Source: Actinomycetes bacterium (GTDB taxonomy: Bacteria; Actinomycetota; Acidimicrobiia; Acidimicrobiales; UBA8190). Taken from it: a DNA stretch of 34,715 bases. The notes below the pieces were generated by a model. The model ran no database searches. It had not been told where the DNA came from and saw only the letters and a list, made by a program, of their open reading frames with translations. The translations under genes and the position numbers were made by a program. Position 1 is the first letter of the stretch, and each line of letters begins with the position of its first letter. This document shows, in pieces, positions 29,141-32,252 of the stretch. Location: contig JAJZNB010000294.1 of assembly GCA_021848085.1 (NCBI GenBank), positions 1 through 34,715 on the forward strand, read 5' to 3'.

Positions 29141-29199
29141 CCGGCTCGTGGCGAAGGCCAGGGACCGGCTCGGGTGCAGCATCGGGTAGCCTTGGAAGT

Positions 29200-29214
29200 A
29201 CCTGGACACCAGGT
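29200..29214. promoter_or_regulatory. Palindrome ACCTGG-ACA-CCAGGT
   Basis: Perfect 6-bp inverted arms with a 3-base centre, located before the short leader ORF and just after TAGCCT (29188-29193), which fits a -10 consensus. It is suited as an operator dyad or a short hairpin at the 5' end of the leader RNA. Confidence 0.4.
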
Positions 29215-29264
29215 GCGACGTCGGCGCAGGTCGGCGCCGGGGAGGCGCAGAGGAGGTGATGCCG

Positions 29265-29342
29265 GTGCAGAACAAGGGCGAACCCCCCAGTTGCGGCCGT
29301 CCGGACCATGCCCGGCCTCCCGCGCCCGACGGTCACCGCTGA
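29265..29342 (+). CDS. Candidate 25-codon Pro/Asp/Glu-rich leader peptide
   Basis: GTG 29265 lies eight bases after GGAGG of a 10-base perfect complement to the 16S rRNA 3' end (AGGAGGTGAT), the strongest ribosome site in the window. The peptide has 25 residues with Pro at 7, 8, 13, 18, 19 and 21, acidic residues at 6, 14 and 22, and ends HR before TGA. Pro- and acid-rich leader peptides such as MgtL sense low Mg2+ by ribosome stalling or destabilisation, and the downstream genes are Mg-related. ATG 29259 in the same frame is too close to the ribosome site. Confidence 0.45.
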   Translation: MQNKGEPPSCGRPDHARPPAPDGHR

Positions 29343-29352
29343 GCTGGCCGCT

Positions 29353-29385
29353 GCGCCCTGAACGGGCGCTGTCGGCGCCGCCGAC
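29353..29385 (+). terminator. Two tandem hairpins after the leader ORF
   Basis: GCGCCC-TGAAC-GGGCGC (29353-29369) and GTCGGC-GCC-GCCGAC (29371-29385) are perfect 6-bp stems separated by one base. They start 10 bases after the leader-ORF stop. There is no T-run, so Rho-dependent or translational attenuation is as likely as intrinsic termination. Confidence 0.4.
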
Positions 29386-29464
29386 GGCCGATGCGTGTGC
29401 ACGGGGAGCTACCTGACCTGTCCCCGCCCGCCGTGCCGGTGGGCCGAGCTCCGAAGGACGCCCG

Positions 29465-30847
29465 ATGGCCCATGCCGCCACCTTCCCCTCGGCGCCGGCG
29501 CCGGCGACAGCCCACGCGCCGCACCACCGCGGATCCCACCGCGAGCGGCGCATCCTCCGCAGCGAACGGATCCTCGCCACGCGCGCCGTCGCCGAGTCGC
29601 TGGTGTCGGCGGCAGGGCTGCAGCGCCGCCCGGTGCTCAACCAGGCCGGCGCCGAGATCGGCCACCTGGTCGACGTGGTGGCCCGCTGGTCCGACGGTCA
29701 GACCTATCCTCCGGTGACCGGGCTGGTGGTCCGGGTCGGGCGCCGCCTGGCCTTCGTCGACGCTGCCTCCGTCGACCGCCTCGAGTGGGGCGAGGTCCGC
29801 CTGGCGTCGAGCCGCCTCGACCTGCGCGACTTCGAGCGTCGGCCCGGCGAGGTGATGCTGTGTCGCGACGTGCTCGACCACCAGCTGGTCGACACCGACG
29901 GGGTGCAGGTGATCCGGGCGGCCGACCTGTACCTGGCCCAGGTGCTGGGGCGGATCCGGCTGGTCGGTGTCGACGTCAGCCTCCACTCGCTGTGGCGCCG
30001 GCTCGGCCCGGCCCGCTGGCGGCGGCGGCCGACCCCCGAGCGGGTGATCGACTGGTCGGCCATCCAGCCCTTCGGCGAGTCGGGGCGCCAGCCGTCGGAG
30101 GTGCGGCTGCGGACCTCCAACGACGGGCTGCACCGGTTGCGGCCCGGCGAGCTGGCCGACCTCCTCGAGGACCTCGAGCGGCCCGCCCGCGCCGAGCTGC
30201 TCGACGTCCTCGACCCGGCCGAGGCCGCCGACGCCCTCGAGGAGATGGACCCCGAGGAGGTCCGCACCCTGCTGCGCGAGGTCGATCCCGGCCGGGCGGC
30301 CGCCCTGGTGGAGCAGATGGAGCCCGACGAAGCTGTCGACGCGCTGCGCGACCTGGACCGCGACGACCGCGACGACCTGCTCACCCGGATGACGTCGGCG
30401 GCCGCCGAGCGCCTCAGCGTCCTGCTCGACTACCCCGAGGACCGGGCCGGCGGCATCATGACCACGCTGCTGGTGGTGGCCACGACCGACGACACCGTCG
30501 ACGACGTGCGCCGCCGCCTGGGGGAGCTGGCGGAGCACCGCCACGACGTCGACGCCGTGGCCGTGGTGGACGCCAACGGACGCCTCGTGTGGGACCTGCC
30601 GCTGTTCGACGTGGCCCTGGCCGCAGGGTCGGCGCGCCTGGGCCAGCTCGTCGAGCACGAGGAGACCGTGACCGTTCCCCCCGGCGCCGGCCTGGCCGAC
30701 GTGGCCGCCCGCTTCGTCGAGGCCCGCCGGCTGTCGCTGCTCGTCGTCGACGACGGCCGACCGGTCGGCAGGATCCTCGCCGACGACGTCGTCGACGCCC
30801 TGCTGCCGGTGCGCGGCCGGGCCCGCTTCCCGCGGCTGCTGCAGTGA
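29465..30847 (+). CDS. Soluble PRC-barrel / MgtE_N / CBS-pair protein (magnesium-sensor-like)
   Basis: A 460-residue protein without membrane segments. Residues 1-35 are disordered. Residues 45-200 form PRC-barrel-like beta sequence (RPVLNQAGAEIGHLVDVVAR, and VMLCRDVLDHQLVDTDGVQV as a second unit). Residues 220-330 are the acidic helical MgtE_N superhelix (LRPGELADLLEDLERPARAE, and so on). Residues 335-455 are a CBS pair. In MgtE channels these cytosolic domains bind Mg2+ and close the pore; here the TM domain is absent. AAGGA lies eight bases before ATG 29465. The NRAMP gene starts 13 bases downstream, so this is probably the separate Mg2+ sensor/regulator of that transporter. Confidence 0.88.
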   Translation: MAHAATFPSAPAPATAHAPHHRGSHRERRILRSERILATRAVAESLVSAAGLQRRPVLNQAGAEIGHLVDVVARWSDGQTYPPVTGLVVRVGRRLAFVDAASVDRLEWGEVRLASSRLDLRDFERRPGEVMLCRDVLDHQLVDTDGVQVIRAADLYLAQVLGRIRLVGVDVSLHSLWRRLGPARWRRRPTPERVIDWSAIQPFGESGRQPSEVRLRTSNDGLHRLRPGELADLLEDLERPARAELLDVLDPAEAADALEEMDPEEVRTLLREVDPGRAAALVEQMEPDEAVDALRDLDRDDRDDLLTRMTSAAAERLSVLLDYPEDRAGGIMTTLLVVATTDDTVDDVRRRLGELAEHRHDVDAVAVVDANGRLVWDLPLFDVALAAGSARLGQLVEHEETVTVPPGAGLADVAARFVEARRLSLLVVDDGRPVGRILADDVVDALLPVRGRARFPRLLQ

Positions 30848-30860
30848 CGCGGCTGGTGCC

Positions 30861-32252
30861 ATGAGCCCCCCCACCACCGAGTCCGAGGGCACCGACCCGG
30901 TCCCGGCCGGCGGGCGACGGGGCTCCGGCCCGTCCCCCGCCGTTCCCGGAGCGTCGCCCGCCGCTCCCAGTGCAGCGCCGGCAGGCCTCGCCGCCGGCGC
31001 CTCCCCTTCTGGCGGCCGGTCCCGGCGGCGTCGGCTGTTCGTCTACCTGGCTGCCATCGGACCGGGGCTGATCGCCGCCAGCGCCGGCAACGACGCTGGC
31101 GGGGTCCTCACCTACGCCTCGGCCGGGGCACAGTTCGCCTACCGCACCTTGTTCTTCATGGCCGTCGTCACCGTCTTCTACGTGGCGGTGCAGGAGATGG
31201 TGGCCCGACTCGCCGCCCACACCGGCAAGGGGCTGGCGGCCCTCATCCGCGAGGAGTTCTCCCTGCGGTGGACGGCGTTCGCCATGGTGTGCTTCGCCAT
31301 CGCCAACGTCGGTCTGGTGGTGACCGAGTTCGCCGGCATCGCCTCCGCCTTCGGGCTGTGGGGCGTGTCGCGGTACGTGTCGGTGCCGATCGCCGCCGCC
31401 GCCATCTGGGTGCTGGTGCTGTTCGGCTCGTACCGCTACGCCGAGCGGGTGTTCCTGCTGCTGTCGTTGGGGTTCCTCGCCTACCCGCTGGCGATGCTCT
31501 TCGGCCATCCGGCCTGGCGGACGGCCGGCGCCGACCTGGTGTTCCCCCACTTCCTCGGCACCAGGGGGTTCGTGCTGTTGGGGGTGGCTCTGGTCGGCAC
31601 CACCATCACCCCCTACATCCAGCTGTACGAAGCCGGGGCGGTGGTCGACCGGGGGGTCGGCCCCGAGGAGTACCGCCTCACCCGCTTCGACGCCATCAGC
31701 GGCGCCGTCGTCTCCGACGTCATCTCGGTCTGCATCATCATCGCCACCGCCGCGGCCATCGGCGGCACCGGGCCGCTGCAGTCGGCGGCTCAGGCGGCCC
31801 GCTCTCTGCGGCCGGTGGCCGGGGCCGGCGCCGAGACGCTGTTCGGCCTCGGGCTGCTCGGGGCCTCGGCGCTGGCGGCGGCGGTGGTGCCGCTGTCGAC
31901 GTCGTACGCCCTGGCGGAAGCCATCGGGGTGGAGCGGTCGGTGTCGCGCAGCTTCCGCCAGGCGCCGCTGTTCCTCGGTCTGTTCAGCCTGCAGATCGCC
32001 ATCGGCGCCTTCGTGGTGCTGGTCCCGGGCAACCTGATCCACCTCATCGTCAACGTGCAGGTCCTCGAAGGTCTGATCACCCCGTTCACCTTGGGCTTCG
32101 TGCTGATCCTGGCCAACCGCCGCAGCCTGCTGGGCCCGGCGGCCAACGGCGTGCTGGGGCGGGTCGTCGGCACCGTCTCGCTGGTCGCCGTCGGCGGCTT
32201 CTCGCTGGTGCTGGTGGTGCTGAGCGTCAGATCGTGGTTCGGTCTGGGCTGA
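30861..32252 (+). CDS. NRAMP (SLC11)-family transporter, probably of the Mg2+ (NRMT-like) kind
   Basis: A 463-residue protein with 11 or so membrane helices after a disordered 55-residue N-terminus. Helix 1 reads IGPGLIAASAGNDAGG: DAGG (78-81) replaces DPGN, keeping the Asp and losing the Asn ligand. Helix 6 reads GTTITPYIQLYEAG: Thr250 and Tyr252 replace the Met and His of MPH, the Met being the residue that selects Mn/Fe over Mg/Ca. Such changes are reported for NRAMP-related magnesium transporters. Pairing with an MgtE_N-CBS protein supports Mg2+ as substrate. The exact NRMT motif was not checked by alignment. Confidence 0.87.
   Translation: MSPPTTESEGTDPVPAGGRRGSGPSPAVPGASPAAPSAAPAGLAAGASPSGGRSRRRRLFVYLAAIGPGLIAASAGNDAGGVLTYASAGAQFAYRTLFFMAVVTVFYVAVQEMVARLAAHTGKGLAALIREEFSLRWTAFAMVCFAIANVGLVVTEFAGIASAFGLWGVSRYVSVPIAAAAIWVLVLFGSYRYAERVFLLLSLGFLAYPLAMLFGHPAWRTAGADLVFPHFLGTRGFVLLGVALVGTTITPYIQLYEAGAVVDRGVGPEEYRLTRFDAISGAVVSDVISVCIIIATAAAIGGTGPLQSAAQAARSLRPVAGAGAETLFGLGLLGASALAAAVVPLSTSYALAEAIGVERSVSRSFRQAPLFLGLFSLQIAIGAFVVLVPGNLIHLIVNVQVLEGLITPFTLGFVLILANRRSLLGPAANGVLGRVVGTVSLVAVGGFSLVLVVLSVRSWFGLG

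Follow-up and report, generated by a model that had tools for sequence, protein, structure and literature searches.

When Mg2+ is low, ribosomes translating the MgtL leader peptide drop off at an EPDP motif near the N terminus, and mgtA is transcribed (PMC11282234, PMC11552253). In another enterobacterial leader, corL of corA (Salmonella, E. coli), translation acts through Rho to reduce the expression of corA; corL has few Pro or acidic residues, and no motif shared with mgtL is stated for it (PMC11552253). The mgtQ ORF, located between mgtC and mgtB in Salmonella, controls a Mg2+ transporter through an abortion of translation that depends on acidic residues (PMC8092293). In Clostridia and Deltaproteobacteria, Mg2+-type NRAMP/MgtE_N operons are under the control of the M-box, and free MgtE N-domains paired with NrmT were already described by Shin et al. 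2014 (PMC4072509). The nearest actinobacterial work concerns the M. tuberculosis M-box, a Mg2+-responsive leader with a conserved small upstream ORF, Rv1805A, that has Pro at position 7; this small upstream ORF is said to be specific to mycobacteria (PMC12810186). Arrest at a Pro-Pro motif is described for the RAPP peptides ApcA, ApdA and ApdP (PMC10951233). A table of attenuators in S. lividans contains amino-acid leaders only (PMC8079986).

The window analysed here, a stretch of 34,715 nucleotides forming contig JAJZNB010000294.1 of an Actinomycetes bacterium, contains at 29141-29464 what appears to be the 5' leader of a Mg2+-uptake operon with a short regulatory ORF. Sequence comparison shows that this leader belongs to a family common to many Actinobacteria. 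As in mgtL of mgtA (E. coli, Salmonella), the ORF is short and efficiently initiated, has early acidic and Pro residues, and lies upstream of a Mg2+ transporter. In contrast to mgtL, its core is (G/S)(E/D)PPS with one acidic residue and a fixed AGU codon for Ser, it occurs in another phylum, and it is common to several transporter families without a conserved RNA fold. It is not an mgtL homologue proper, the core being (G/S)(E/D)PPS and not EPDP. Like corL, some members lie upstream of corA, but in the present family a single motif is common to CorA and NRMT leaders. mgtQ is also a short ORF that controls a Mg2+ transporter; it differs in having 8 codons, in lacking Pro-Pro-Ser, in freeing the mgtB ribosome site and in being enterobacterial. 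The M-box upstream of NrmT likewise controls Mg2+-type NRAMP/MgtE_N operons, whereas here a peptide leader occupies its place. The M. tuberculosis leader is similar in being an actinobacterial Mg2+ leader, and 28-residue ORFs found in this study share Pro7 with Rv1805A; it differs in its M-box aptamer, which is absent from the genomes tested here. RAPP peptides resemble the leader in having a Pro-Pro motif in a leader-type peptide, and differ in the RAPP motif itself and in their targets, thought to be protein-localization components. The arrest of RAPP peptides is not known to occur near the N terminus. An amino-acid operon attenuator was also considered and rejected, as the downstream genes are Mg2+ transporters and there is no terminator.

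The features of the locus are as follows.

29187..29192, + strand: likely promoter -10 element TAGCCT, predicted from the enrichment of TANNNT upstream of leaders
29251..29260, + strand: Shine-Dalgarno sequence AGGAGGTGAT of the leader ORF, 10 bases, by direct reading
29265..29342, + strand: leader peptide ORF MQNKGEPPSCGRPDHARPPAPDGHR, with GTG start and TGA stop (29340-29342)
29277..29291, + strand: core GGC GAA CCC CCC AGT (GEPPS), proposed Mg2+-sensitive pause or drop-off site, from per-position information content
29353..29369, + strand: hairpin 1, GCGCCC/GGGCGC, a perfect short stem from the first-pass annotation, not conserved
29371..29385, + strand: hairpin 2, GTCGGC/GCCGAC, a perfect short stem from the same source, not conserved
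29465..30847, + strand: MgtE_N-CBS gene, a free MgtE cytoplasmic-domain homologue (PF03448 E 6e-22, PF00571 E 3e-11)
30861..32252, + strand: NRMT-type (Mg2+) NRAMP transporter gene (PF01566 E 1e-71; EleNRMT 7QIA E 8e-90)

Both downstream genes fit Mg2+ transport. The product of the first matches the structures of the MgtE cytoplasmic domain (2YVY/2OUX, E 1e-16) and is without the membrane part of MgtE. The best PDB match of the second is EleNRMT (7QIA, E 8e-90), compared with E 2e-14 for the best Mn2+ NRAMP. It bears N-DAGG and GTTITP, fitting the DxxG-TxxA/T metal-site signature of NRMTs (PMC8806188), here in the form DxxG-TxxT. The first-pass annotation had called these genes an MgtE_N-CBS protein and a Mg-like NRAMP, identities that the Pfam matches (PF03448, PF00571) and the match to 7QIA confirm. 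The genome assembly of the window (89% complete) contains no match to CorA and no M-box, and the leader model gives one strong match in it.

The leader peptide MQNKGEPPSCGRPDHARPPAPDGHR has 25 residues, among them 6 Pro and 3 acidic residues. An in-frame ATG at 29259 overlaps its Shine-Dalgarno sequence; the GTG at 29265 is the likely start because relatives such as L013 lack this ATG. The perfect 10-base ribosome site and the 25-codon Pro/acidic ORF reported earlier for this locus are indeed present, and the start and core recur in 61 other leaders. A GAGG-rich Shine-Dalgarno sequence is kept across the leader alignments. Upstream, 43 of 61 leaders have TANNNT at 20-110 nt from their start, where shuffles would give 22.3, and TAGCCT is also found as a -10-like site in L004, L125-127 and L132.

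The core of the leader ORF is conserved to a degree that chance cannot explain, and conservation is confined to the first ~9 codons: the start, 2-4 residues, and (G/S)(E/D)PPS. The earlier emphasis on the number of acidic and Pro residues (3 and 6) does not hold, as only this N-terminal motif is conserved. Of the 61 leaders, most have (E/D)PP followed by Ser at residue 7-8, and 53 have their Ser at one of these two positions. The acidic position is filled by N, K, Q, Y or Ile in 5 of 55 leaders. Other variants read GAT-CCC-TCC-AG(A/T) (L099, L100, L125-L127) or have a single Pro (DPC, DPS, EPH). Leader lengths range from 12 to 42 residues and the C-termini are without conservation, which argues for a regulatory rather than a working peptide. 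Across 50 distinct cores, information at the Glu/Asp and Pro codons is 1.3-2.0 bits at codon positions 1-2 and 0.2-0.6 bits at position 3, with 1.5-2.0 bits at positions 1-2 for the Pro codons alone. This synonymous turnover of Glu and Pro codons indicates that the peptide itself is translated and selected. The Shine-Dalgarno sequence, start, frame and pattern of third-position turnover of this short ORF before a Mg2+ transporter are all conserved. A programmed frameshift at CCCCCC was considered as well; the alternative frames vary in length between relatives.

The Ser codon behaves differently from the Glu and Pro codons. In the same 50 cores, AGT carries 2.0 bits at all three positions, and every one of the 55 motif-bearing leaders, including that of the window (29289-29291), uses it for Ser. 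In the genes downstream, AGT accounts for 3.4% of Ser codons, and for 0 of 19 in the window gene; the codon is fixed in the leaders of GC-rich genomes in which it is rare. In the first 13 loci the fixation is not an artefact of a nucleotide model, because these loci were found through the transporter protein; the later leaders were found by nucleotide models and are biased toward AGT. The fixed AGU is the oddest part of the find, and neither drop-off alone nor a purely peptide-based model explains it.

The distribution of the leader was followed from the transporter genes outward. Orthologues of the MgtE_N-CBS protein were gathered by protein search and their upstream regions inspected. Thirteen MgtE_N-CBS/NRMT loci, the window included, have an upstream short ORF with a strong Shine-Dalgarno sequence, an EPPS-like core and AGT; the core is GAA-CCC-CCC-AGT or a close variant, and the remaining leader has diverged. 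The leader is missing upstream of several other orthologues (L014, L006-L009). A sequence-only model of the 13 leaders (R1), run on 99 related genomes, matched directly upstream of stand-alone NRAMP genes (L052, L056, L058, L062, L021). An enlarged model (R2) was applied to the phylum (396 genomes) and to the class (296 genomes). It added ~20 further MgtE_N loci and matched one leader before CorA (L071, PF01544 E 9e-67), a family outside its training, and one before a 28-residue one-helix ORF (L069/L070). A third model (R3) was used to search two further orders at a cut-off of E<=0.002. In the order of G305, all 6 matches at this cut-off precede CorA; in that of G296, all 24 precede CorA (8), full-length MgtE (1) or a 28-residue hydrophobic ORF (15). 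Pfam confirmed the MgtE and CorA assignments downstream of R3 leaders. A second MgtE case is L135 (E 0.007), and in L132 an MgtC gene (PF02308 E 8e-36) follows the leader at a distance of ~0.7 kb. By the family labels of the search results, leaders come from ~28 actinobacterial families. Because R2 and R3 were trained stepwise, full independence holds solely for the extension from MgtE_N leaders to NRAMP and CorA, and matches within one genus are not mutually independent. Above E 0.005, most other R3 matches are chance. Matches rejected as chance, mostly inside other genes, are L073/L147, L053-L055, L057, L059, L060 and L063, together with L074, L101-L106, L131, L136, L138-L141 and L148-L150.

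A known RNA sensor does not account for the locus. An Rfam search of the window leader gave no family at gathering score or at E<=1. M-box searches (RF00380) found none in the window or in the nine genomes tested, eight of which have the leader, and the positive controls, B. subtilis and L. lactis, gave matches. The first-pass annotation had proposed a Pro/acidic leader peptide before Mg-transport genes without a Mg riboswitch core, and comparison with relatives supports this by revealing a conserved family of such leaders.

We consider it likely, by analogy with mgtL, that low Mg2+ causes ribosomes to pause or drop off at E/D-P-P-S and thereby turns Mg2+ uptake on. That Mg2+ is the signal is deduced from the identity of the genes that follow. 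An efficient ribosome site starts a leader peptide with (G/S)-(E/D)-Pro-Pro-Ser at residues ~4-8. At low Mg2+ the ribosome would pause or fall off at E/D-P-P-(AGU), where an exit tunnel not yet filled would leave it weakly held; with ample Mg2+, ribosomes would complete the leader. Transcription or translation of the transporter genes would then depend on the state of the leader mRNA that lies behind the ribosome, low Mg2+ meaning that uptake is on. This last step may use Rho, as in the enterobacterial mgtL and corL, or local folding, or translation. The ribosome itself is probably the Mg2+ sensor, because the same leader precedes several unrelated families of Mg-transport genes. The likeness to MgtL lies in how the parts are arranged: a strong start is followed by an acidic residue and Pro-Pro while the tunnel is still unfilled, then by a rare AGU, and Mg2+ importers lie downstream. 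Against the mgtL-like reading, one acidic residue before Pro-Pro is usual here, and MgtL relies on two. The leaders with a non-acidic residue in that place, the orthologues that have no leader, the absence of a shared RNA fold or terminator downstream and the fixed AGU also count against it. A wider proposal can be put forward tentatively, and we hold it to be possible rather than probable. It states that a single (G/S)(E/D)PPS family with an obligatory AGU is the common Mg2+ sensor in a large part of Actinobacteria. Its regulon would comprise NRMT, CorA, MgtE, MgtC and the 28-residue membrane peptide, it would replace the M-box, and AGU would be part of the sensor, a Mg2+-sensitive decoding step at this wobble codon behind Pro-Pro setting the threshold.

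The first-pass annotation had further proposed control through an orthodox hairpin switch between GTCGGCGC and GCCGAC. The sequences for it exist: GTCGGCGC occurs at 29220, 29230 and 29371, with one complementary GCCGAC arm, at 29380. The two hairpin stems, described as strong, are also where they were reported, but they are at chance level for GC-rich DNA. Folding of 29141-29464 and of 29342-29464 was no better than that of dinucleotide shuffles (z -0.78 and -0.06, respectively). Relatives keep the leader ORF but neither the stems nor the GTCGGCGC copies, which are not conserved even in L002 (82-84% protein identity); the competing folds are not supported. No intrinsic terminator was found that would support an attenuator in the strict sense, terminator versus antiterminator. 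Control of the transporter by this switch is therefore highly improbable. A second RNA-based reading takes the conserved stretch to be chiefly an element of RNA, with AGU and its flanks bound by a factor or pairing elsewhere and translation of the ORF secondary. It would accommodate the AGT that is fixed in 55 of 55 leaders, the DPSR variants, which read TCC AGA and retain a CCAG-like sequence, and the pairing of the leader 3' part with post-stop sequence that can form in one CorA group. Yet the codon periodicity is strong, third positions at Glu and Pro are free, the distance from the Shine-Dalgarno sequence and start is fixed with Ser at residue 7-8, and there is neither an Rfam match nor a shared fold. 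We regard an element that is mainly RNA as quite unlikely. As to the readout, RNA from the Ser codon to the gene start is somewhat stabler than shuffles (mean z -1.39, n=51 leaders). Pairing of the leader 3' part with downstream RNA is not general (mean z -0.66), nor is sequestration of the downstream gene's ribosome site (mean z -0.19), and no common RNA structure was found downstream of the leaders. With regard to Rho, 74% of the stretches between leader stop and gene are richer in C than in G, but the window leader has no C-over-G bubble (0.39 vs 0.38).

TrmD requires Mg2+, which offers a route by which the leader might sense Pro-Pro elongation itself, through EF-P, charged tRNA-Pro or tRNA m1G37 methylation, and Mg2+ only by way of these. 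Pro-Pro is the most invariant part of the peptide, and EF-P and Pro codons affect mgtL in Salmonella (PMC6460261; Gall et al. 2016 as cited in PMC11552253). However, the downstream genes are specifically those of Mg2+ transport rather than genes for Pro or translation, conservation extends to the acidic residue and to the AGU codon, and some leaders have a single Pro (DPC, DPS, EPH). Sensing of Pro-Pro elongation as such is thus unlikely. The ORF could instead encode a working small protein of Mg2+ homeostasis, as do those of MgtS, MgtR and MgtU. Its conservation in gene context would fit such a role, and small Mg2+ proteins are known (PMC8092293). This is very improbable, given that only ~5 residues are conserved, lengths vary from 12 to 42 residues with unrelated C-termini, and the leader peptides have no membrane segment.

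To our knowledge, little is understood of Mg2+ control in Actinobacteria beyond the mycobacterial M-box. No description of the E/D-P-P-S leader was found in the open-access literature, subscription papers and preprints being outside this scope; its novelty is provisional because of that limit. The leader peptide is apparently undescribed and unrelated to MgtL. One short motif that marks unrelated Mg2+ gene families provides a bioinformatic handle on the Mg2+ regulon, and it predicts that NRAMP-like proteins and small membrane proteins have a Mg2+ function. How ribosomes sense Mg2+ can now be tested in another, independent peptide, one in which a codon is fixed. The comparison suggests that ribosome-based sensing of Mg2+ has arisen at least twice in bacteria.

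Several individual loci merit separate mention. A leader-like ORF (MKPRKPPPGVLPERQNG..) precedes an MgtA-type P-ATPase in L072/L137 (TIGR01524 E 3e-142). That of L072 has KPPP without Ser-AGT, and it is kept only as a weak case because there is no second one among 119 genomes of its class. At L061:1501-1541, MTGEPPSTT with AGT lies at the start of an ORF that runs into a YbeY-like protein, which may be chance. Nine CorA leaders of one family (L108, L119, L121, L123, L124, L129, L130, L133, L134) have the tail SPEVPA or similar and an invariant CorA ribosome site, CCCGGGAGUCCGUC. A stem across the leader stop is possible in the CorA group, between GAGGUCCC in the 3' part and the post-stop GGGACCUC. 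The GAGGUCCC/GGGACCUC stem looks convincing by eye; RNAalifold of nine CorA leaders showed little covariation and did not recover it, and it is a suggestive lead only. In L021 and L020/L062, the leader-bearing NRAMP genes are divergent from MgtE_N-CBS and do not form one operon with it. A 28-residue one-helix ORF comes after the leader in L069, L107-L118, L120 and L125-L127; MSRYAAPLGFTLAAVWVAVLFVLAGGGH and MSKVTVPFAAVLMLAWILTITVINASAH are examples, and both have Pro7.
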